Below are positions 23,431 to 56,597 of a stretch of DNA of 64,000 nt, piece by piece (position 1 is the stretch's first letter; each line of letters opens with the position of its first letter). A program made the translations under genes and the position numbers. The notes beneath the pieces were generated by a model. It did no database searches, had not been told where the DNA came from, and saw only the letters and a list, made by a program, of their open reading frames with translations. The stretch lies in NCBI RefSeq assembly GCF_041146795.1, contig NC_135185.1:11093529-11157528 (forward strand), in the 5' to 3' direction. This DNA is from Maylandia zebra (Eukaryota > Chordata > Actinopteri > Cichliformes > Cichlidae).

Positions 23431-26400
23431 ATGAACGCGATCTGGACCCTAGCTGTTTGTTTCAAAGTTGTGAGTTTTGCCGTTTCTGGTCGGACGCAGA
23501 ATTCATCCAGGTAAGTGGTGGAATTTGGTATGAAGGGAGTCGCATTCGTTTCCTGAACGAGAACGCCTGCATTCGTGAATGAATTGATGGCGCACAACCA
23601 CCTCCGTTCGTCAGTAACGCACCTTTCTTTCCTCTGTGCCAGTGCTACGTTGTGTCTGGTCTCAGGTCCAGAGGTGGTGCACGCTGGCACGCCGACTCCT
23701 CTGGCCGTCACCGTGTTCGGAGACTTCCCGGGCACGGTGACAGCTGAATTGGGACGTGGAAGCACCAAAGTATCGCTGACCGAAGACTTCCAAGAAGGTG
23801 ATGTGCAGTCACAAGCCGATTCAAGCTTGAATTAGTTTCTTTTAACTTTCGGGAGGGTTAAAAGGTCATTCTGTTTTAAAGGTTTGACGAGTGTCCTCAC
23901 GCTTCCTCCTGTAAGTATAGTTTTTATTTCTTCTCACGGCAGTAGAGGGGGGAAAAAAAGTCTTTCTGACTGGGATCACAGTGTTAACACTTATGTCATC
24001 GCTCCAGATTCCTGACTCCTTAACCCAGAATTCCCTCTTAAACCTGACGGTGCGGGGCTACAAAGGAAACACTGTCATTTTCACCAACACCACCACCCTA
24101 ACCTTCAGTCCCAGGAATGTGTCCACCTTTATCCAAACTGACAGATCCCGCTACCATCCAGGGGACGCAGTCAAAGTCAGAGCCGTGTGTGTTCAGCTGG
24201 ATAACCATCCATACAAGGACAGAGTGGATCTCTCTGTACGGGTGCGTCTCTATTGTCTGTGTGAAAGAACAAAGCCACAGGAACTCTGTTCTTTTTTCAT
24301 TGCTCACTGGGACCTTGACTGATATTCCTTTCTTACATGCAGGATCCCAGTGGGAATATCGTTGACAGGTGGGAGTCCACGCCCAATCTGGGAATCGTGT
24401 TGCGAGAATTCCCTTTGTCCCAGACGGCTGCTCTTGGACGCTGGGTGATCGCAGCTACTGTGAATGTAGGGTTGTTGTTGTTTTCCCCTCTGCACGCTGT
24501 GATGGACTAAGAAGGAATATCTTCTCATCCGAGCTTCCCTCTTCTTACATGCAGGGTGTGGCTGACGAGAAGCAGTTTGTTGTGGAGCTTCATGGTAACG
24601 TGCATATCGATTTATTCCAAAATAACGGTGATGGTTTATGTTCGATCGGTCAGTTTGAGGATAGACGGCACTGGTTGACCTGAACAACATCAGTGGTTCA
24701 GAGTGAATCATTCTGACAACAGCTGGATGGATTCCTATTACATTTAATGCCTAGGATTTATCCAAATCCTTTTGCGATGCCTTGACTTTCCCTCTAAAAC
24801 GGGAATGTCAAACTCATTTTGCATTGTGAGCCACAAACAGCCCCTGAAGTGGGTCGGACCAGTGAAACTCCCCTTTCTGTCGGTGTAAAGAAGTTTGACT
24901 GCACATTTGATCCCTGAAATATTTTGATATAGGAAAAAAAGACATGCAGTTTCAACTACATGCTGCTGTAGTAAATGAAGGAAATCTGTCAGCCTGATTC
25001 TTTGGGCTTAAATTGATTCCCTCTTTCATATTTTCCATCCTGTCGGGTCAACTGTAGTCTTCGACGGGCCGATTCTGGCCCCCAGGCTTTATATTTGACA
25101 CCCCTGCTGTAGAATCGCCACGTACTTCAGCTCTACATTTTCTAAATGACTTAAAGTCACAGTTCCCAAATGGCAACGTCTGTTCCCTTTGGCGATCTTC
25201 CTGTCACGCCACTCGCTGACATTTTTGTTTTGACGGATCTTCTAATCTTCTTGTTGAGTCTCAGGTCAGCTTGTAATTTTCCCAGCGTCCACTTCTGCAG
25301 TGCTTTGTTCTTGGTATCGAAACTAGGATTAAACTGAGATCTACCAAAATGACCATCCTGTCTCACAGAGCGCCCACACTTTGACGTTCTGATCAAGACG
25401 CCGTCACACATCCTTGCTGGAGATGACGTCTCAGGATCAGTGAGAGCACTGTGAGCTCATCTGGATCATTTCAGCCAATAACATATTTTCATACATATAA
25501 GTGAAGCAAGTGAAGCAGCATTAGTGTGTTTTTCCATTTAGGTACCCTGGTGGACGGCCCTTAGGTGGAACATTAGTTGTTTCTCTGGAGTCTGCTATGA
25601 GCAACACGACCTCTGCTATGCAAACTAAAGAGGTGAAGCTCTCCATGTCCCCTTTTCTTCAGTTTTTCATATCTTTAATCATAAACTGAAACAGCAATAG
25701 AAACTATAAGAGACACTATCTGTCATTTTTAACCTTCGCTTTCAGTTCTACGGATCAACACAGTTTTTCTTCAGCAATGATCAACTCCAGGCTCTGCATA
25801 CTTCATCAGTTAGCAGTGACGGTCGTCCCACTGTGCACGTTACTGTCTCTGTTAACGACAGCACCACAGGTATGACGCATTTTAATAAACCAGCGTTGCT
25901 GCAAGTATAACTTTAACTTCACCAAACAACATAATGTTCTTTGTTAAGGGTTTAAAGTGAACAAAACCGTGAAAGTCCACCTGATGCAGAATGTATTCCA
26001 GCTCACATTCCACGATTTTCCACCCACGCTAAAGCCGTCGTTACACTTCTCTACAAACGTGAGTTATTATTATTATCATAACTCACATGTCAGAGCCTTT
26101 TGGACACAGTATTAGTGCCTCCTCTGTTTCACAGCTCAGGATCTCAAGATACGACAGGAAGCCGCTCAGCTCAGTGGACCTAAAGCACTCTGCTGTGGTT
26201 CAAATCAATCAGATAACGTCTGTGAAAAACGCAGAACCCACAGCTCTGATACTTCCTGTGTCTGAGGACGGGGACGTCCGCATCAGGTTTAAATTACAGG
26301 CTCAAGTTGTGACGCTCTTTATTCAGGTCAGTAATGTAATTCTCCAACACGCAAAGGTGGACTTGCAGAACAATCACAGTTCTGTACTTTTGTTGCTTGT

Positions 26401-29400
26401 AAGAGTTTCAGTAGCGTAAAAGATGACATTAAATTTAAGAGAAATGACTGAAATTAAAAACACGACCTCTGATGTGTTATGTTTTCAGAAGAACAAAGAA
26501 AGATGGAGAACATCAGTTCATAAGTGCACATTTTCTTTATCTTACTGCTATAAATACTGATTTTTAGGCCAGATTTCAGTCCAGTGAGGAGACTCTGAAG
26601 ATTTCCAACAACTTCTCCTCTCCGAGCGACTCGTATGTTCAGATCGCCCCCGGCAACACATCTGCACAGGTATTATATACAAAGTTAATATTTTTAATAT
26701 ATCACAGCTGCATGTATCCAAAATGTAACTATATTTATTTAATTTCCAGATTGGCTTGCCTCTGCAGATAAATGTAGAGAGCACCTTTAACCTGACCAAG
26801 CTTCACTTTGTGGTATGTTTGGTTACATACACAGTGTGTGCATTTGATTTTCTGCATCTTTTCTGCATTAAGGACAAAATGCAACATATTGTAAAGTAAA
26901 ATTAATCTTATGAATTGCAAGAAAATCTTACAGTGGCCAGCACATAAGTGTCTAAGCTTCTAACTGTAAATCATTTCTGTGGCTTTGTTGTGTTACACAC
27001 AATTACTCATTAATGCAGAGTACTATGTGTGTGTTTAAACACTGTTACCGGAAGTTGTGCACCTGTCCGTGACACTTCTTCAACCCAACAATGATTTAGT
27101 AATGTATGTACAGTGGGGCAAAAAAGTATTTAGTCAGCCACCGATTGTGCAAGTTCCCCCACTTAAAATGATGACAGAGGTCAGTAATTTGCACCAGAGG
27201 TACACTTCAACTGTGAGAGACAGAATGTGAAAAAAAAATCCATGAATTCACATGGTAGGATTTGTAAAGAATTTATTCGTAAATCAGGGTGGAAAATAAG
27301 TATTTGGTCACCTCAAACAAGGAAAATCTCTGGCTCTCACAGACCTGTAACGTCTTCTGTAAGAAGCTTTTCTGTCCCCCACTCGTTACCTGTATGAATG
27401 GCACCTGTTTGAACTCATCATCTGTATAAAAGACACCTGTCCACAGCCTCAAACAGTCAGACTCCAAACTCCGCCATGGCCAAGACCAAAGAGCTTTCGA
27501 AGGACACCAGGAAAAGTATTGTAGACCTGCACCAGACTGGGAAGAGTGAATCTACAATAGGCAAGCAGCTTGGTGTGAAAAAATCAACTGTGGGAGCAAT
27601 CATCAGAAAATGGAAGACATACAAGACCACTGATAATCTCCCTCGATCTGGGGCTCCACGCAAGATCTCATCCCGTGGGGTCAAAATGATCATGAGAACG
27701 GTGAGCAAAGATCCCAGAACCACACGGGGGGACCTGGTGAATGACCTGCAGAGAGCTGGGACCAAAGTAACAAAGGTCACCATCAGTAACACACTACAAC
27801 GGCAGGGAATCAAATCCCGCAGTGCCAGACGTGTTCCGCTGCTGAAGCCAGTGCATGTCCAGGCCCGTCTGAAGTTTGCCAGAGAGCACATGGATGATAC
27901 AGCAGAGGATTGGGAGAATGTCATGTGGTCAGATGAAACCAAAGTAGAACTTTTTGGTATAAACTCAACTCGTCGTGTTTGGAGGAAGAAGAATACTGAG
28001 TTGCATCCCAAGAACACCATACCTACTGTGAAGCATGGGGGTGGAAACATCATGCTATGGGGCTGTTTTTCTGCCAAGGGGACAGGACGACTGATCCGTG
28101 TTAAGGACAGAATGAATGGGGCTATGTATCGTGAGATTTTGAGCCAAAGCCTCCTTCCATCAGTGAGAACTTTGAAGATGAAACGAGGCTGGGTCTTCCA
28201 ACATGACAATGATCCAAAACACACCGCCCGGGCAACAAAGGAGTGGCTCCGTAAGAAGCATTTGAAAGTCCTGGAGTGGCCTAGCCAGTCTCCAGACCTC
28301 AACCCCATAGAAAATCTGTGGCGGGAGTTGAAAGTCCGTGTTGCTCGGCGACAGCCCCAAAACATCACTGCTCTCGAGAAGATCTGCATGGAGGAATGGG
28401 CCAAAATACCAGCTACTGTGTGTGCAAACCTGGTAAAGACCTATAGAAAACGTTTGACCTCTGTTATTGCCAACAAAGGTTATGTTACAAAGTATTGAGT
28501 TGTATTTTTGTTATTGACCAAATACTTATTTTCCACCCTGATTTACGAATAAATTCTTTACAAATCCTACCATGTGGATTCATGGATTTTTTTTTCACAT
28601 TCTGTCTCTCACAGTTGAAGTGTACCTCTGGTGCAAATTACTGACCTCTGTCATCATTTTAGGTGGGGGAACTTGCACAATCGGTGGCTGACTAAATACT
28701 TTTTTGCCCCACTGTATTTTGTAGGTGAGCTCTAAAGGCCAGGTGGTAGCTGCTGGGACCCAAAACTCCTCGTCCTTCTCTGTGACCCCAGCGCTGTCCT
28801 GGGCCCCTGCGGCCTGTGTCACCGTTTACTGCATCCTGTCTGACGGCGAGATCATCAGCGACGCAGCACAAATATCCATCAGTCGAGACAGCTATGTACA
28901 GGATCTCGTTTTATTATATTGCTCTAATGAATTCCCAACAGTAATCCTCTTCATCCTGTGCCGTACTCTGTGTGCGTGCTCCCCTCAGGTGTCATTAAAG
29001 TGGAGCAGTGAAAGCGCCCAGCCAGGTGAGCAGGTATCGCTGACTGTGACCGGTCTTGAATCCAGGTCTCAGCTGGCAGTCACGGTAATGGGGACACACG
29101 ATGACGCCCTGCAGCCCGATCTGAACTTTAAAGAGGAAGGGGTATGACCGCAGTAACCATGCTTCCTTCTGTATAAATGCTGATTATGTCTGCAGACAAA
29201 AGCTTAAAATTCATCTGTGAAACATGAGCTCCTGCGAACCTTCGTCAGAAAGTCACCTGTTTTAGATACCGCACGATTTCCTTCATATTGTTCTCCCAGT
29301 CACCCCAGTCACCTCAGTCCCCCAGCACACTGTTCCCAGTTAGATACTGCACGGAAATTGAAAAAGTGATCACTAAACCGGCTCGTCCAGATATAACATA

Positions 29401-32400
29401 TCTGTCTGCTTTGTTAGGAGGTGACTCCTGTTTCTAAGAGCTGGTAACCTCAGTGCTCTGGATTCAGGACCTGAGGCTTAAGGATCGCTGCAATAGAGGA
29501 AACCAAGTGTCACCTTTTCTCACCTCCAAAGCTCTGACAGTCTGTAGAGAGTGTGTGTGTGAGAGAGAGTGTAGGTGTGAGTGTGTGTGAGAGTGTAGGT
29601 GTGAGTGTGTGTGTGTGGTAGAATAGATCATTTAAAAACTGCGATCGCCTCAGATTCCTATAAAGACGCTTAGACTTTACGTCACACCTGACTTCTAACT
29701 CATGTGGTGATCTGACAACAATCCATTTAAAAACTTTCTCGCCCAAACAGATTCACTGTTACCCATTTTTCCTCTTCCTGTCCCACCACAGGACTGTGAT
29801 CTTCAGATCCTGACCAATACGAAATTATACAGGAAAAACCAGCCTGGACCTAAAAATGGTAAAACGGCTGTTTTTTTTTGTAGTTACGATACTGACTTGA
29901 CTTTGCATCTTCAGTGCTATAAATACAATCTCATGGCTTTCAGAAGGACATGCCCCAGAGGTGCACAAGGACTGGCACCACTGGATGGATGGTGCTGAAG
30001 CTTTGCTGTGGTTGAACACTAACGTTAGGTAAGGGCTGAGAGGGGAAGGTGATTCATCTGATCCACTACAGGGAGTGCAGAATTATTAGGCAAATGAGTA
30101 TTTTGTCCACATCATCCTCTTCATGCATGTTGTCTTACTCCAAGCTGTATAGGCTCGAAAGCCTACTACCAATTAAGCATATTAGGTGATGTGCATCTCT
30201 GTAATGAGAAGGGGTGTGGTCTAATGACATCAACACCCTATATCAGGTGAGCATAATTATTAGGCAACGTCCTTTCCTTTGGCAAAATGGGTCAAAAGAA
30301 GGACTTGACAGGCTCAGAAAAGTCAAAAATAGTGAGATATCTTGCAGAGGGATGCAGCAGTCTCAAAACTGCAAAGCTTCTGAAGCGTGATCATCGAACA
30401 ATCAAGCGTTTCATTCAAAATAGTCAACAGGGTCGCAAGAAGCGTGTGGAAAAACCAAGGCGCAAAATAACTGCCCATGAACTGAGAAAAGTCAAGCGTG
30501 CAGCTGCCAAGATGCCACTTGCCACCAGTTTGGCCATATTTCAGAGCTGCAACATCACTGGAGTGCCCAAAAGCACAAGGTGTGCAATACTCAGAGACAT
30601 GGCCAAGGTAAGAAAGGCTGAAAGACGACCACCACTGAACAAAACACACAAGCTGAAACGTCAAGACTGGGCCAAGAAATATCTCAAGACTGGTTTTTCT
30701 AAGGTTTTATGGACTGATGAAATGAGAGTGAGTCTTGATGGGCCAGATGGATGGGCCCGTGGCTGGATTGGTAAAGGGCAGAGAGCTCCAGTCCGACTCA
30801 GACGCCAGCAAGGTGGAGGTGGAGTACTGGTTTGGGCTGGTATCATCAAAGATGAGCTTGTGGGGCCTTTTCGGGTTGAGGATGGAGTCAAGCTCAACTC
30901 CCAGTCCTACTGCCAGTTTCTGGAAGACACCTTCTTCAAGCAGTGGTACAGGAAGAAGTCTGCATCCTTCAAGAAAAACATGATTTTCATGCAGGACAAT
31001 GCTCCATCACACGCGTCCAAGTACTCCACAGCGTGGCTGGCAAGAAAGGGTATAAAAGAAGAAAAACTAATGACATGGCCTCCTTGTTCACCTGATCTGA
31101 ACCCCATTGAGAACCTGTGGTCCATCATCAAATGTGAGATTTACAAGGAGGGAAAACAGTACACCTCTCTGAACAGTGTCTGGGATGCTGTGGTTGCTGC
31201 TGCACGCAATGTTGATGGTGAACAGATCAAAACACCGACAGAATCCATGGATGGCAGGCTTTTGAGTGTCCTTGCAAAGAAAGGTGGCTATATTGGTCGC
31301 TGATTTGTTTTTGTTTTGTTTTTGAATGTCAGAAATGTATATTTGTGAACAGAGGTGTGGACTCGAGTCACATGACTTGGACTCGAGTCAGACTCGAGTC
31401 ATTAATTTTATGACTTTAGACTTGACTTGAAAAAATGTTCTAAGACTTGTGACTTGACTTGGACTTTTACACCAATGACTTGGGACTTGAATTGGACTTG
31501 AACCGGTTTACTTGAAAAGACTTGATATTTTACCCCAAATACAAAATTTAACATGCATATTATATAGAGATTGAAAATGTGACGTCATTCACGGGTAGAA
31601 CCGCAAAGGATTCTGGGAACTCGTGGCAAGCGGTACTAGCGCACGCAGGCTTTCAATTAAAATCAGTTATACAGCGATAAAAAGAAACACAAGAAGCTGT
31701 TGTATTATTAACTGCAATAGCCGGTCGCATGACAGCCATGGGAAGCCGACGGGTAAAGAGATCGGTTGTTATCGGATTACGTCGTTGAAGAGAAATTGTT
31801 CGAGCCATGTTTCCGAAGTAACAAAGAGGCGACGGGTGGCCTGGATTGCAGCCATTCAAAGGTCAAATATAACGTCCCAGAACACTCCAGCTCACAGGTT
31901 AGTCTGCTCCAAGCATTTACACAAAGGTCAGTGTTTTTTAGTAGTTAATACGTCACTTTCATAACATAACTGGTGATATAGGTTACAAGCAAGTCTGGCG
32001 CTGAACAGAAATTGTCGCGCTATGCTCCTTTATTTATTGTGCATAAATAGTGAATTGTCCTGACACAATATTGCGTTTCGCCTCTGTTATTATGGTACAT
32101 TAACAAAAACATATACTTTTATTCACAGGATAAAACAGTTTTTTTGTATCACTAATTGCCCAGTACGATTACAGCATACAGTATTATTGTCACTGCTACA
32201 TTTCTGTGATGCTACCAGAAATTATTTCCACTACTAATTAATTACCGTTGAGCTCAAAGGTTATATTAATAAACGGTTAACGAATGTGTATTTATGACGA
32301 CGATTTGTGAGACTGGTAAACTTATGATACGTACGATGGTCTTTCGTTCTACACGGTGCATTTCAAAGTCCTGCACCCATCTGTCGGTAAACTGTACCTG

Positions 32401-35400
32401 GGCTTGTTGCAGTGACCGGAAGTTACTAAACTTCATGAGTGTGTGCACTCACTCCAAGAACCGTATAATTATAAATATGCATATAAATATGCTACGATGA
32501 GATAGCTGACTTCATCTAACTAGCAAATGTTGTCCAGGCTACGTTGGTGATACAGTTTTTTTAATGTGTATGATATTTTTGTCATGCGATTTTAAAGCCG
32601 GTCCTACAACCGCATCCAAGAATGACATGCAGCTTATCTCAGAACTGTCGGTGAAAATTATTCTTGGAGCTAGGTTTAATTGAGCTGCATTTTAAAGAGG
32701 TGCAATTTCACAATTTGTGTATATTTTCTAAGTTAACTATTTTGTCATGTGTTGAGAAAAACACAGATTTTAAAATTACATGGTCTAATATTTACATTTA
32801 GCATATAACTGCAACATTATTTTTTCGTTGTTTTTTTTTTTAAAGACTCGAAAGGACTTGAAATTCAAAGTTTCAGACTTGTGACTTGACTCGGACTTTT
32901 ACACCAGTGACTTGAGACTCGACTCTGACTTGCCTGACATTACTTGAGACTTGACTTGTGACTTGAGGATAAAGACTTGAGACTTACTTGAGACTTGCAA
33001 AACAATGACTTGGTCCCACCTCTGTTTGTGAATGTGGAGATGTTATATTGGTTTCACTGGTAAAAATAAATAATTGAAATGGGTATATATTTGTTTTTTG
33101 TTAAGTTGCCTAATAATTATGCACAGTAATAGTCACCTGCACACACAGATATCCCCCTAAAATAGCTAAAACTAAAAACAAACTAAAAACTACTTCCAAA
33201 AACATTCAGCTTTGATATTAATGAGTTTATTTGGGTTCATTGAGAACATGGTTTTTGTTCAATAATAAAATTATTCCTCAAAAATACAACTTGCCTAATA
33301 ATTCTGCACTCCCTGTAGTTCACTGAATATTGCTGCTTTTTCCTTTCTCTCAGCAATCGGACTTGGACAAGTGAGAAAATACTCGTTCCAGATGGCATTA
33401 CTGCTATGGGAGCTTTAGCACTGGTGATGTCGGAGAACCTGGGCTTGGTCTTCACTCCTGTGCTGCAAAAGGTAACAAAACACTCTTCACATTTCTGGTA
33501 TTCGTGCTTCCTTCTTTTACGAACGAGGAGTTTTACGAACTGAGATGCTGAGGAGTTATCTTCCCCGACCTTCTTAATAACTCTCGCTTATGTTGTTTCA
33601 TCGACAGCTGACTGTCTCCAAAGATTTTTCCTTGTCTCTGGGCGCCCCATCACTCCTCATCAGAGGAGAGGAGATTGTGTTGGAAGTGAAGATCATCAAC
33701 CATTTGGAGCAGGAGATGGATGTATGTAGGACGCACTTTGTGGTACATTGTAGCTGAATAAGGCTGAGTTTGGTAAATAATCTGACATCTATTGACAGAG
33801 ATCCGAGTCTCTCCCTGTTGCATGAATTATTGCTCACTTCCATCATTTCTGGCACGGCATATTTTCCCTGTTTTTAAAGATTGCGCTTTGCTGTCATACG
33901 TTTCTCTGCATATGTAGGTCATCGTGCTGCTAGCACAGAGCAAGTCCTTTGAGTTTGTTCTGACGCACCGAAAAGATGCATCTGTTATCAATGCTCAGAA
34001 AGTCACCGTGGAGAGTCACGGCTCTGCTTCAGCTCTGTTCCCTGTGAGGCCTTTGGCTCTGGGTGAGGTGGAGATATCTGTGGATGCTGTGTCTGCAGAG
34101 GCCTCAGACAGTCTTGTTTGGAGAGTGATGGTGAAGGTATGATAAAGCAGGGAGATGTCTGAGCATAGGACGGTGCCTGCAACACGATGTCGCTACAAGA
34201 TGTGCTTTTGAACTTATGCGGCACAGTTATTCCTATCATAACACTGAAATGCTTGTTCCTGAAGCCCGAGGGAGTTGAACAGTACTTCTCTCAGACGCTG
34301 TTCCTGGAGATGGAACCGGAGAAACGGAACAAATCCACAGCCCTCTCCTTCTCCTTCCCCCCAAATGTGGTGCCCGGCAGTCAGAGGGCCCGTGTGGTAC
34401 TGGCTGGTAAGTCTGCCGTTTGTCCTCTTACTGTTCGTGCATGCAGTTTGTTTACTTTGAGTCGTTTAGGCATGTATCATAGCAGAAAAGCAGATTTCAG
34501 GTTCAGCTTGTCTTGATAGTCAGCTGCAGGATAAACGTTTCATCTTGCAGAACTGCGGCTTCCTGCTCAGTGAGGCTGTTTTTTTTTCCATCCTTCTGTA
34601 ACGTGTCATTTAAGCCACTTCCCCCGACTTTCAAGGTGCCCATTTAAAAAAAATACTCTTTATATTCCATTCAAAAGTTACCTTATTTGAACACTCGTCT
34701 GGTGAAAGAGACACTTTCTGTTCCCATTCCGGTCTCACCTTCCAGCTCAAATTGCTCAAAAACAAACATGTTGTTCATGTGTTAAATCTTTCCATCCTCT
34801 GTCCTGCTGCTTCTCGCAGGCGATATCCTGGCTTTGTCCATCAACAACTTGGGTTCACTGGTTCAGCTGCCGCTTGGATGTGGGGAACAGAACATGATCC
34901 ACTTTGCTCCAAGTGTATATGTTATCCAGTACCTGGACACTTCAAACCAGGATGACCAAGAGCTCAGGAGAAAGGCTCTAGCTTACATGATGGAAGGTTA
35001 GATGGACCTCGGTCACTCATAAAGATCACTGACCTGGAGAACTAGTTATCACAATATATAAGAACGTCTTCTGAGTGTTAAATTGAAGGTTCTCTGAGCC
35101 CATTAAGGGGTTTGTCACAAGCATTTTTGCTTTTTTGCTGTAAGGTTATCAGAAACAGTTGTCCTACCAGAGAGAAGACGGTTCCTTCAGTGCTTTTGGA
35201 AACAGCGACACCTCTGGCAGCACATGGTAAGGTCACCCGTGTGGTCCATTTTCATAAATGTTTTCTCTAAAATCGCAAATTTTCTGATGCTCCTTCTTCT
35301 CTCTCCTCTCTTCTTTCTCTGGATCCAGGCTGACGGCCTTTGTGCTGCGCTGCTTCCTCCAGGCTCAGCCCTACGTGAAGATAGACCAGAGCATCCTGGA

Positions 35401-49500: not shown

Positions 49501-49545
49501 AGCACAGATCATGTAACTGTCGTTCTCTAAACCTAAAAGAGAATT

Positions 49546-50154
49546 ATGGATTTGATCAACTGGTCCCTGAGTGCTATTGACACCCTTTTCTCAACGAGAA
49601 GTCGGGGCTCGGGAGAGCCTGAGTGCCCTGGAGGGACTTTCCCTGCCGGTTACACGATGGACGGGTGGCAGAACTGGAGGACCGTGTGCCTGGCGGGACT
49701 GTCGATCGAGGACGCTGAAGATATCTACCTATTCGGAACCATGATAACAGGGTTCATGCTGATCGGCGTTGGCCTAGCCCTGCTTTATCGGAGAAATAAG
49801 AGAGCGGAACCGGCTGTTCAAACCCCCACATGGCTGCCCGCTGGATTCGAAGCGCGGGGACGAGGTGCGACCTCTCACAACGAACGTAATATGGTCAACA
49901 CCTTGGAGACGCTTACTGCTGCTGTGAAGGCTCAAAACAACACCATTGAGCGTATGAGGGGAAACATCAGAGAAAGGCCTGCTCAAAATGACACCCTTGA
50001 GCGACAGTTGGAAAACATCGCAGAACGGATCACTGCAGTTGTGAAGTCTCAGAATCAAAAGACTGACAACACCTTGGAACTGAAGTTTGATACCATCATG
50101 GGGAGGCTCGCAGCTCTTCAACGCGAAGTTGAGGGACCTGTCTCAGAGTGCTAA
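49546..50154 (+). CDS. Intronless 202-aa single-pass membrane/coiled-coil protein encoded in a retroposed unit
   Basis: The ORF starts at ATG 49546, after aaaagagaattatgg, and has no introns. Residues 1-58 contain two cysteines (C27, C48) and Trp-rich DGWQNWRTVC. Residues 60-81 form a hydrophobic segment (IYLFGTMITGFMLIGVGLAL) followed by basic YRRNKR, a classic stop-transfer signal. Residues about 112-195 are polar with heptad-spaced Leu/Ile/Val (NTLETLTAAVKAQ, NDTLERQLENIAERITAVV, NTLELKFDTIMGRLAALQ), predicting a long coiled coil in three related repeats. There is no obvious signal peptide, so a signal-anchor topology is likely. I do not recognise a named domain. The GC-rich codon use contrasts with the AT-rich flanks. 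The downstream sequence ends like a retroposon, so this is probably an element-encoded or retrocopied protein, not a conventional gene. Confidence 0.6.
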   Translation: MDLINWSLSAIDTLFSTRSRGSGEPECPGGTFPAGYTMDGWQNWRTVCLAGLSIEDAEDIYLFGTMITGFMLIGVGLALLYRRNKRAEPAVQTPTWLPAGFEARGRGATSHNERNMVNTLETLTAAVKAQNNTIERMRGNIRERPAQNDTLERQLENIAERITAVVKSQNQKTDNTLELKFDTIMGRLAALQREVEGPVSEC

Positions 50155-50792
50155 AATTCGAGCTGCTCACAAAACAGAAATTAACAATATTCAACATTCG
50201 GACACCACGGCGCCAGCTGCAGGCCCAAGGCTGGAGCCCACCAAAACAACTTCCTGATAACGACTGTGTGATGACTGTTCTTCCCGTCCCATGAAGGCCA
50301 CCTGGGTTGGCTGGCAGACTGTTTACTTAGCCTGATAGAGCGAAGGACACTGTCTCCGCTGAACTCTGGACACGCACACACGTACACTTACACTGATAAG
50401 CACACACTCATCCCCCCTCCCTTCCAAACGCCTTCGATGCTTGTTTCCTGAAGGGGCAGCACGGCGGGTCTGTGTGCCGCGCTGGAATGATAGCGCTGTG
50501 CAGGGTGGCTGCTGTGTTCGCTTCGGATTACTCCTCAACCCCCACCCACCCCTGTGGCTTGTCATGTCTTCACAATGTTGTGCTGTGGACATTTATGTGC
50601 TTCTTGTGCAGAGGAGTTTTTTTTGTTTCCTGTTCTCATGCTGTCCTACCATGGAAGCATAGCATGAGTAGGAGTCTCTTTTTTTCCTCTGGTACTTTCC
50701 CCAGTGTAGTGTACATTTCAATGTTTTTTTCTGATTCTACCAATCTCTGACCTGTATCCCCATGTAATGTTTGTGCTATATGTGTAAGGTCG

Positions 50793-50795
<3 letters not shown>

Positions 50796-50823
<28 letters not shown>
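50796..50823 (+). repeat. 28-nt G homopolymer
   Basis: Uninterrupted G run preceded by cggga, giving more than 30 nt with strong G-quadruplex potential. It lies in the 3' part of the putative retroposon. The exact length may be affected by assembly. Confidence 0.85.
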
Positions 50824-50865
50824 TCCTATTTCACTGCAGGGCAACCTGCATGTGACGAATAAAGC

Positions 50866-50866
<1 letters not shown>

Positions 50867-50900
<34 letters not shown>
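50867..50900 (+). repeat. (TTGA)n tandem tail
   Basis: About eight TTGA units immediately follow AATAAAGC. Interpreted as the 3' tail of the putative retroposon; alternatively a plain tetranucleotide microsatellite. Confidence 0.8.
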
Positions 50901-50901
<1 letters not shown>

Positions 50902-54914: not shown

Positions 54915-56597
54915 CAGAGGTGTGGACTCGAGTCACATGACTTGGACTCGAGTCAGACTCGAGTCATTAATTTTATGACTTTAGACTTGACTTGAAAAAA
55001 TGTTCTAAGACTTGTGACTTGACTTGGACTTTTACACCAATGACTTGGGACTTGAATTGGACTTGAACCGGTTTACTTGAAAAGACTTGATATTTTACCC
55101 CAAATATAAAATTTAACACGCATATTATATAGAGATTGAAAATGTGACGTCATTCACGGGTAGAACCGCAAAGGATTCTGGGAACTCGTGGCAAGAGGTA
55201 CTAGCGCACACAGACTTTCAATTGAAATCAGTTATACAGCGATAAAAAGAAACACAAAAATGTCAAGAAGCTGTTGTATTATTAACTGCAATAGCCGGTC
55301 GCATGACAGCCACGGGAAGCCGACGGGTAAAGAGATCGGTTGTTATCAGATTACGTCGTTGAAGAGAAATTGTTCGAGCCATGTTTCCGAAGTAACAAAG
55401 AGGCGACGGGTGGCCTGGATTGCAGCCATTCAAAGGTCTAATATAACGTCCCAGAACCCTCCAGCTCACAGGTTAGTCTGCTCCAAGCATTTACACGAAG
55501 GTCAGTGTTTTTTAGTAGTTAATACGTCATTTTTCATAAAATAATTGGTGATATAGGTTACAAGCAAGTCTGGCGCTGAACAGAAATGGTCGCGCTATGC
55601 TCCTTTATTTATTGTGCATAAATAGTGAATTGTCCTGACACAATATTGCGTTTCGCTTCTGTTATTATGGTACATTGACAAAAACATACTTTTATTCACA
55701 GGATAAAACGGGTTTTTTTGTATCACTAATTGCCCAGTACGATTACAGCATACAATATTATTGTCACTGCTACATTTCTGTGATGCTACCAGAAATTATT
55801 TCCACTGCTAATTAATTACCGTTGAGCTCAAAGGTTATATTAATAAACGGTTAACGAATGTGTATTTATGACGACGATTTGTGAGACTGGTAAACTTATG
55901 ATACGTACGATGGTCTTTCGTTCTACACTGTGCGTTTCAAGGTCCTGCACCCATCCGTCGGTAAACTGTACCTGGGCTTGTTGCAGTGACCTGAAGTTAC
56001 TAAACTTTCATGAGTGTATGCACTCACTCCAAGAACCGTATAATTATAAATATGCATATAAATATGCTACGATGAGATAGCTGACTTCATCTAACTAGCA
56101 AATGTTGTCCAGGCTACGTTGGTGATGCAGTTTTTTTTTTAATGTGTATGATATTTTTGTCATGCGATTTTAAAGCCGGTCCTACAACCGCATCCAAGAA
56201 TAACATGCAGCTTATCTCAGAACTGTCGGTGAAAATTATTCTTGGAGCTAGGTTTAATTGAGCTGCATTTTAAAGAGGTGCAATTTCACAATTTGTGTAT
56301 ATTTTCTAAGTTCACTATTTTGTCATGTGTTGAGAAAAACACAGATTTAAAAATTACATGGTCTAATATTTACATTTAGCATATAACTGCAACATGCTTT
56401 TTTTCGTTTTTTTGAATGACTCGAAAGGACTTGAAATTCAAAGTTTCAGACTTGTGACTTGACTCGGACTTTTACACCAGTGACTTGAGACTCGACTCTG
56501 ACTTGCCTGACATTACTTGAGACTTGACTTGAGACTTGAGGATAAAGACTTGAGACTTACTTGAGACTTGCAAAACAATGACTTGGTCCCACCTCTG
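54915..56597 (+). mobile_element. hAT-like element copy B (8-bp TSD, THAP exon)
   Basis: This 1683-bp element has the same ends as copy A (CAGAGGTGTGGAC to GGTCCCACCTCTG) and a perfect 8-bp duplication TTAAATTG (54907-54914 and 56598-56605). It is collinear with copy A over its whole length with only scattered substitutions and small indels, so both inserted recently. Subterminal ACTTG arrays occupy about 180 nt at each end. They share a stretch (gacttgtgacttgact then ggacttttacacca) in the same orientation at both ends. It encodes one THAP exon and no transposase. Confidence 0.87.
55188..55500 (+). CDS. THAP zinc-finger exon in hAT-like copy B
   Basis: An internal ATG at 55260 begins [19 protein letters not shown], the typical N-terminal start of a THAP domain. 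An upstream in-frame ATG at 55188 would add 24 residues. The C2CH pattern is complete: Cys pair in CCIINC, conserved Trp in [11 protein letters not shown]-x2-H in VCSKH. The frame is open to a good donor G|gtcagt at 55501 (phase 1), after 80 codons from the internal ATG; unspliced it reads on to a stop at 55544. THAP domains bind DNA and occur at the N-terminus of P-element and some hAT-derived proteins such as THAP9 and THAP12, so this is probably the DNA-binding exon of the parental transposase gene. Confidence 0.7.

Follow-up and report, generated by a model that had tools for sequence, protein, structure and literature searches.

Upstream of a retroposon-like 3′ end in a 64,000-nucleotide stretch of Maylandia zebra DNA (the window) lies an intact open reading frame (ORF) of 202 codons that predicts a membrane protein, which raises the question of what kind of element carries such a cargo and how it moves. 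A reading made from the letters of the window (referred to as the sequence-only reading) had proposed three possible answers, namely a new type of LINE ORF1, a non-autonomous element, or a retrocopied host gene. The comparison of genomic copies described here makes it probable that the ORF belongs to a family of protein-coding, non-autonomous non-LTR retroposons moved by LINEs in trans, of which the window holds a 5′-truncated member. Of the three proposals, the non-autonomous element fits best; no reverse transcriptase (RT) was seen in the unit. The new ORF1 type has been kept as a working analogy. The retrocopied host gene fits poorly, since the subfamilies have diverged, most of the sampled frames are open, and 3′ ends have been exchanged between copies; a one-off host retrocopy was rejected on these grounds, although a diverged parent could lie outside the best 150 of the 1545 candidates from the ORF search.

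Searching 962 Mb of genome sequence (63 contigs) with the ORF yielded at least 151 matches spread over many contigs, and the comparison of 68 copies revealed a common 5′ end, so that the retroposed, multi-copy nature claimed for the unit was borne out. The best 150 of the 1545 candidates were scored, a ranking that favours intact copies, and a manual count found in-frame stops in 32 rows among the ORF matches listed. The comparison set of 68 copies with the ORF was mostly chosen by ORF score and therefore also favours open frames; it includes the segmental duplicates L007/L032, which have the same flanks, and L020/L021, which have common upstream sequence and identical ORFs. The full unit measures about 1.47 kb and is composed of a 5′UTR of about 146 nt, the ORF, and a 3′UTR of about 700 nt. 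Its 5′ start lies at −136 to −150 from the ATG in 44 of the 68 copies (at −145 to −148 in 41 of these), whereas 16 copies have later, scattered starts and 8 are without a reliable 5′UTR match. The window copy starts at −30 and lacks the first ~116 nt of the full unit (Table 1). An upstream CAG, at one point considered as a splice acceptor, was dropped because most copies continue to about −146.

Starting from other parts of the unit led back to the same structure. Four sites with the window type of tail (tail A) and no listed ORF match beside them all carry the unit, three of them shortened at different points and one cut by the fetch and internally rearranged. Among the best 40 matches to the 5′UTR, 30 run directly into a listed ORF match when compared by eye, 7 more lead to the 3′UTR or tail of the unit, and 3 lead to nothing listed; no in-frame stop is present in 24 of the 30 copies reached in this way. 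When the flanks of 36 other copies were searched for target-site duplications, the mean longest shared word was 4.31, compared with 3.26 after re-pairing (sd 0.33; 300 re-pairings reached at most 4.11). In this set, 5 of the 36 have no match of at least 4 bp, the flanks of L007 are identical to those of L032, and the matches of L006, L007, L032, and L047 touch the element’s own head. Direct or inverted repeats of at least 20 bp were absent from the L003 unit, the sole unit tested, which ruled out an LTR or inverted-repeat element. Searches for tRNA and Rfam families gave no match in the window, where the full 5′ end of the unit is missing. As a separate observation, the L001 unit is interrupted at about +857 from the ATG by a sequence starting AGTGTTGGGGAGTAACGG, which is presumably hAT-like.

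Table 1. Coordinates in the window of the retroposon copy and its parts.
Feature	Position	Strand	Remark
5′-truncated retroposon copy, ~1.39 kb of the full ~1.47 kb	49516..50901	+	homology to other copies starts at 49516
5′UTR remnant, 30 nt	49516..49545	+	
202-aa ORF, predicted membrane span and coiled-coil-like protein	49546..50154	+	ATG to TAA; open in most copies
Cys/Trp segment, codons 21-60 (Cys27, Trp41, Trp44, Cys48), predicted lumenal or external	49606..49725	+	
Hydrophobic span (codons 61-81) and basic RRNKR (codons 82-86)	49726..49803	+	Kyte-Doolittle
Coiled-coil-like tail, codons 113-196, predicted cytosolic	49882..50133	+	weak Pfam matches, periodicity
Internal duplication, two 48-bp copies (49930-49977, 49981-50028)	49930..50028	+	
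First part of 3′UTR, +680 to +850 from the ATG	50226..50396	+	conservation comparison
Exchangeable 3′ module of type A, switch between about +825 and +900	50446..50857	+	
G run	50792..50823	+	
AATAAA (offset +1312)	50858..50863	+	
(TTGA)n 3′ tail	50867..50901	+	

The protein itself largely answers to its first description. The intact ORF with its Cys/Trp N-terminus, one span, and RRNKR is present at 49546–50154, followed by the G run, AATAAA, and (TTGA)n at 50792–50901. Residues 61–81 form the hydropathy peak of the ORF, with a best 19-residue Kyte–Doolittle mean of 2.13; the ORF outside this span is hydrophilic, and both Cys27 and Cys48 lie N-terminal of it. Alignment of 49 open copies revealed that Trp41 and Cys48 are invariant and that Cys27 and Trp44 are nearly so. 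A single-pass membrane protein is predicted on the basis of hydropathy, and the positive-inside rule would place the N-terminus outside or in the lumen and the rod in the cytosol.

The C-terminal part is coiled-coil-like rather than a regular heptad array. Pfam at E ≤ 10 returned 14 families for the ORF, many of them coiled-coil families, the best with an E value of 0.0007 and all below the cut-off; these weak matches fall on residues 113–196, and no RRM, CCHC, PHD, or esterase match was among them. The heptad repeat of about 80 residues proposed in the sequence-only reading survives in part, as the hydrophobic positions of residues 112–202 follow a helical periodicity of 3.6 residues (p = 0.018), whereas a single unbroken heptad frame finds no support over the same residues (p = 0.39). 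Similarly, of the three related coiled-coil segments described there, two could be traced to a DNA duplication (the copies at 49930–49977 and 49981–50028 align with a score of 48, compared with at most 36 in 200 shuffles). Such a rod may self-associate. The best match of the protein among PDB sequences was no better than E 0.45, and in IMG/VR the window protein gave four pattern matches, of which zero were confirmed.

The 3′ ends of the copies are of several kinds. Tail units of 4–7 nt follow the AATAAA in 56 of the 68 copies, and 15 of the 68 carry the unit TTGA, which defines the subfamily to which the window copy belongs. The other 12 comprise 7 copies without AATAAA in range, 3 without a repeat, 1 with an A run only, and 1 (L024) that was misread. 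Two apparent tail types were discarded, namely that of L024, read in a later insertion, and the odd 3′ end of L001, which looks like another insertion.

Bodies and 3′ ends have been exchanged repeatedly. When four tail classes were placed on the ORF tree (57 copies, with 11 unassigned copies left out), 12 tail changes were counted, compared with a minimum of 3 and a shuffled mean of 27.3, and bodies and tails have thus been shuffled. The starred branches of the tree require tail B, the class of 26 of the 68 copies, to have changed at least 4 times and tail A at least 5 times. Individual pairs illustrate the same point: L003 and L006 agree at 98.3% in the ORF and at 78.4% in the 3′ module, L016 and L061 at 97.0% and 76.7%, and L006 and L016 at 93.5% and 97.7%, respectively. 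The switch point between body and tail lies between about +825 and +900 from the ATG.

With regard to the enzyme that moves the unit, no RT was found inside it, either in the long frames listed in 28 copies or in the flanks of all 68 copies probed with two RT fragments, in agreement with the sequence-only reading. When 28 loci were compared pairwise, the sequence common to the copies did not extend beyond the tail. Same-strand RT frames do occur downstream of the ORF in L013 (+2157) and L021 (from +1799), and further RT-coding stretches lie near L020, L009, L010, L011, L015, L023, L024, L026, L056, and L060. None of these, including those of L013 and L021, is common to the copies as part of the unit, and they probably represent separate elements. 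The full-length relatives with RT downstream of the ORF for which that reading had suggested a search were not found among the copies seen. An L1-type ORF1-like frame lies ~1.1 kb upstream of the unit in L020 and L021, and endonuclease/RT frames lie downstream in L021; these frames, as read by eye, suggest that the unit at these loci was inserted into another LINE.

A candidate partner was identified inside the 3′UTR of L020 (G000:C2:10900000-10906500), where a complete LINE has a 5′UTR of 138 nt, one long ORF, and a (TTCTGA)n tail. The ORF matches RVT_1 in Pfam (E 5e-29) together with weak endonuclease matches, and it follows the 5′UTR with no ORF1 in the one full copy read. This single-ORF endonuclease–RT LINE is taken to be Rex1-like. 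The L021 locus is the empty site of the insertion, with a duplication of ~4 bp. LINEs of this type are abundant and young, as a first look gave 1868 candidates, and most of the best 150 scored are 95–100% identical over the first 151 aa, many with frames of more than 1000 codons. Rex1 is absent from the clades that PMC7140322 lists as examples of elements with two ORFs, in line with the single-ORF LINE here.

Alignment of this LINE with the tail-B subfamily revealed a common 3′ end. The last 46 columns of tail B, read in L006, contain 43 identities, 2 mismatches, and 1 gap relative to the LINE 3′ end (score 75, whereas 200 shuffles reached no more than 26). Of the 31 columns just upstream, 27 are identical to the LINE 5′ end (score 40, with a maximum of 30 among 200 shuffles), in a piece that includes the palindromic GCGCATGCGC, which L001 also contains in a stretch of unrelated sequence. 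Tail B therefore resembles what is left of an inserted, internally deleted LINE, and L020 would represent the first stage of such a step. The A tail of the window copy gave no match to the LINE at L010 (score 18, shuffled maximum 23). A side observation concerns the protein of the L020 LINE, whose only ORF begins MWIERVFVLLVAVELLLL, a hydrophobic N-terminus unexpected for an endonuclease–RT protein, with a mean hydropathy of 1.97 over its first 19 residues. This short stretch is kept in the three diverged copies read (L081–L083), and in a copy at 77% identity the first 24 codons show 3 silent differences and 2 replacements, compared with 21 and 31 in the next 122.

Selection on the retroposon ORF seems modest, with a dN/dS of about 0.5. 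The frame is open over at least 190 codons in 61 of the 68 copies, and the ATG is in place in 58 and missing in 10. The dN/dS comparison across copies that the sequence-only reading had suggested gives a divided answer. Pairwise values are 0.48–0.58 over five distance classes and 0.31 in a sixth that consists of a single pair, yet an omega-like ratio is 1.28 for private variants and 0.78 for variants in at least 3 copies (Fisher p = 0.038, 61 open copies only), and residues 1–20 display values of 1.18, 1.08, and 0.87 in three distance classes, i.e., no constraint. Among distant pairs the hydrophobic span has a dN/dS of 0.82 and codons 21–60 the lowest dN of the ORF (0.036), and the coiled-coil codons reach a dN/dS of 0.42 where silent divergence is high. 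An ORF no better conserved than the flanking non-coding sequence, which the sequence-only reading had named as counting against it, is seen in part, and the outcome depends on the copies compared: in comparisons with the five copies that diverge most, the initial 3′UTR block has medians of 0.84–0.87 and exceeds the coiled-coil codons at 0.73–0.80, whereas averaging across every pair among the 68 copies gives the opposite ranking, with 0.905 for the coiled-coil codons and 0.852 for the 3′UTR block.

The two halves of the ORF differ markedly at silent sites, with a dS between distant subfamilies of 0.10 in codons 1–95 (window 49546–49830) versus 0.59 in codons 113–202; silent sites of codons 1–95 are conserved almost as well as the protein. 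The 5′ part may have been homogenised or may hold an RNA or promoter signal, or recombination may have brought in old coiled-coil variants; RNA/DNA constraint or homogenisation could thus explain part of the open frame. The window copy displayed no unusual RNA fold stability, with z values of +0.22 for codons 1–100, +0.20 for the coiled-coil codons, and +2.43 for the 3′UTR block. Other forward frames over the ORF never exceed 65 open codons, and the longest reverse frame has a median of 125 and lies at about codons 77–199 in the window copy. Indels between subfamilies comprise whole codons, largely by construction because the open copies were aligned as proteins. The chance of finding no stop under neutrality, 0.02–0.19 in 12 comparisons, is only moderately small. 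Copies L030, L047, and L056, from three different clades, have CGA-to-TGA stops at codon 152–153, a pattern to be expected if CpG sites decay independently; the remaining broken copies each carry stops of their own, and no stop common to a clade was found among the 7 broken copies of 68.

These data bear on a rival view to which we give a real, though clearly smaller, chance, namely that the ORF is a passenger of LINE-mobilised RNA, a gene or gene fragment captured once whose frame is open mainly because the amplifying lineages are young and because constraint acts on its 5′ part at the RNA or DNA level. Silent sites in codons 1–95 nearly as conserved as the protein, a non-coding 3′UTR block better conserved than the coiled-coil codons in the most diverged copies, private variants that look neutral (1.28), and neutral no-stop probabilities that are not tiny (0.02–0.19) are all consistent with a passenger, and the sampling of copies favours open frames. 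It is harder to reconcile with a dN/dS of about 0.5 that extends to distant subfamilies and drops to 0.42 in the coiled coil, with the lack of a clade-shared stop among the 7 broken of 68 copies and the occurrence of the three TGA codons in three clades, or with the stop-free frames of 24 of the 30 copies found via the 5′UTR with a listed ORF match.

It is doubtful, in turn, that the ORF represents the ORF1 of an autonomous LINE with two ORFs, of which longer copies with RT exist or existed, with the present copies as internally deleted derivatives and thus a true analogue of HAL1. ORF1-only LINE derivatives such as HAL1 are known (PMC5322556), the tails of the unit are LINE-like, and L013 (+2157) and L021 (from +1799) have same-strand RT frames downstream; however, the shared sequence stops after the tail in 28 loci, the RT of L013 and L021 is not in other copies, and the L1-type ORF1-like frame upstream in L020 and L021 makes the unit look inserted into another LINE. 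Moreover, 37 of the best 40 5′UTR matches lead into this unit, and a single ORF, with no ORF1, is present in the LINE whose 3′ end matches tail B. This comparison covers the top-scoring copies, among which a rare parent could be missed. A membrane span combined with a coiled coil also occurs in viral membrane proteins, and a viral envelope-like or other viral membrane gene might have been captured on a retroposon; this is very improbable, given no confirmed relative in IMG/VR, none in Pfam or PDB sequences, and no repeats of at least 20 bp in the L003 unit.

Among known systems, SINEs and other non-autonomous elements with LINE-derived 3′ ends are mobilised in trans, and the present family resembles SINEs in having, for tail B, a 3′ end common to a resident LINE over 46 columns. 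It differs from them in its length of ~1.47 kb and its protein-coding capacity, and no tRNA or Rfam match was found in the window, where the 5′ end of the unit is incomplete. The presumably Rex1-like LINE has the 3′ terminal 46 columns and the 31-column 5′ stretch in common with tail B, but is of the autonomous type, with one ORF bearing endonuclease and RVT_1 matches. The telomeric HeT-A and TART elements of Drosophila offer a precedent for a division of labour in which one element supplies the structural protein and the other the RT; in contrast to these, the unit here is non-telomeric, no Gag was found, and any help of its protein to a LINE is conjectural.

The nearest parallel is HAL1 (‘half-L1’), a mammalian non-autonomous, LINE-dependent element with ORF1 only and nearly 2,100 human copies (PMC5322556). 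Like HAL1, the present family is a non-autonomous retroposon with an ORF but no RT inside the unit, and for tail B it has a 3′ end common to an autonomous LINE; tail A, the window type, was not traced to a LINE. In HAL1 the ORF1 comes from its own L1, whereas here the tail-B LINE has no ORF1, and the protein here has a hydrophobic span and no RNA-binding domain in Pfam. LINE ORF1 proteins have been classified into types I–V (PMC4120745), and the passages on LINE–membrane links name the coiled coil as their most commonly shared feature (PMC5940361), propose lipid or membrane association for some of them (PMC5478143, PMC5940361), report L1ORF1p to be free of fusion-peptide-like hydrophobic sequences (PMC5940361), and describe the ESCRT dependence of human L1 and yeast Zorro3 as well as esterase ORF1 proteins that bind lipids (PMC5478143), observations that have led to the suspicion that LINE particles use membranes. 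Those passages mention no protein of ORF1 type that spans a membrane. The protein here resembles the ORF1 proteins covered there in its coiled-coil-like part and differs in its hydrophobic span, and it differs from types I–IV in having no RRM, CCHC, PHD, or esterase match in Pfam.

If the family is indeed a LINE-mobilised, protein-coding retroposon, LINE machinery would act in trans on a transcript of ~1.47 kb, probably of Pol II type, and copy it into new sites via target-primed reverse transcription. Because of the common 3′ end, the likely helper of the tail-B subfamily is the abundant single-ORF endonuclease–RT LINE; sequence support for a helper concerns tail B only. Repeated exchange of bodies and 3′ ends may give access to different helpers, and the ORF would be kept open along successful lineages under modest constraint. 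The product is predicted to be set in a membrane, with its N-terminus facing the outside or the lumen and its rod self-associating on the cytosolic side. As a working idea, it could serve as an accessory comparable to ORF1 and bring together either the RNA of the element or the LINE particle at the ER or the nuclear envelope. A bolder extension, which we consider a long shot, is a split membrane-based system in which an ORF1-less LINE with a hydrophobic N-terminus is complemented by a separate retroposon supplying a membrane-anchored coiled-coil protein in trans. The two proteins would then meet at the ER or nuclear membrane, and membrane attachment would be a built-in step of LINE copying.

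Among the titles and abstract openings listed in searches of the open-licence literature, none pointed to a retroposon of fish whose ORF encodes a membrane span; Repbase or Dfam may already contain the family. A multi-copy retroposon that keeps an open membrane-protein frame while repeatedly swapping its 3′ end would provide a natural, testable case of membrane involvement, and the element shows how a protein-coding retroposon can acquire a LINE 3′ end. Should the ORF be a passenger, the family would still be a clear example of modular 3′-end exchange on a protein-coding non-autonomous retroposon.

Aside from this unit, several other features were noted in the window. Two long open frames of Tc1/mariner transposase type lie at 27476–28498 and 30287–31303, both with DDE_3 in Pfam and the former also with HTH_SB and HTH_Tnp_Tc3_2. 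Two similar stretches at 31623–33012 and 55188–56585 have related short frames and the same 33-bp tandem array in each, and the latter has a THAP match in Pfam. Exon-like frames at 23981–29144 match MG2 (below the cut-off) and the alpha-2-macroglobulin bait region, and the first Tc1-type frame lies between them.
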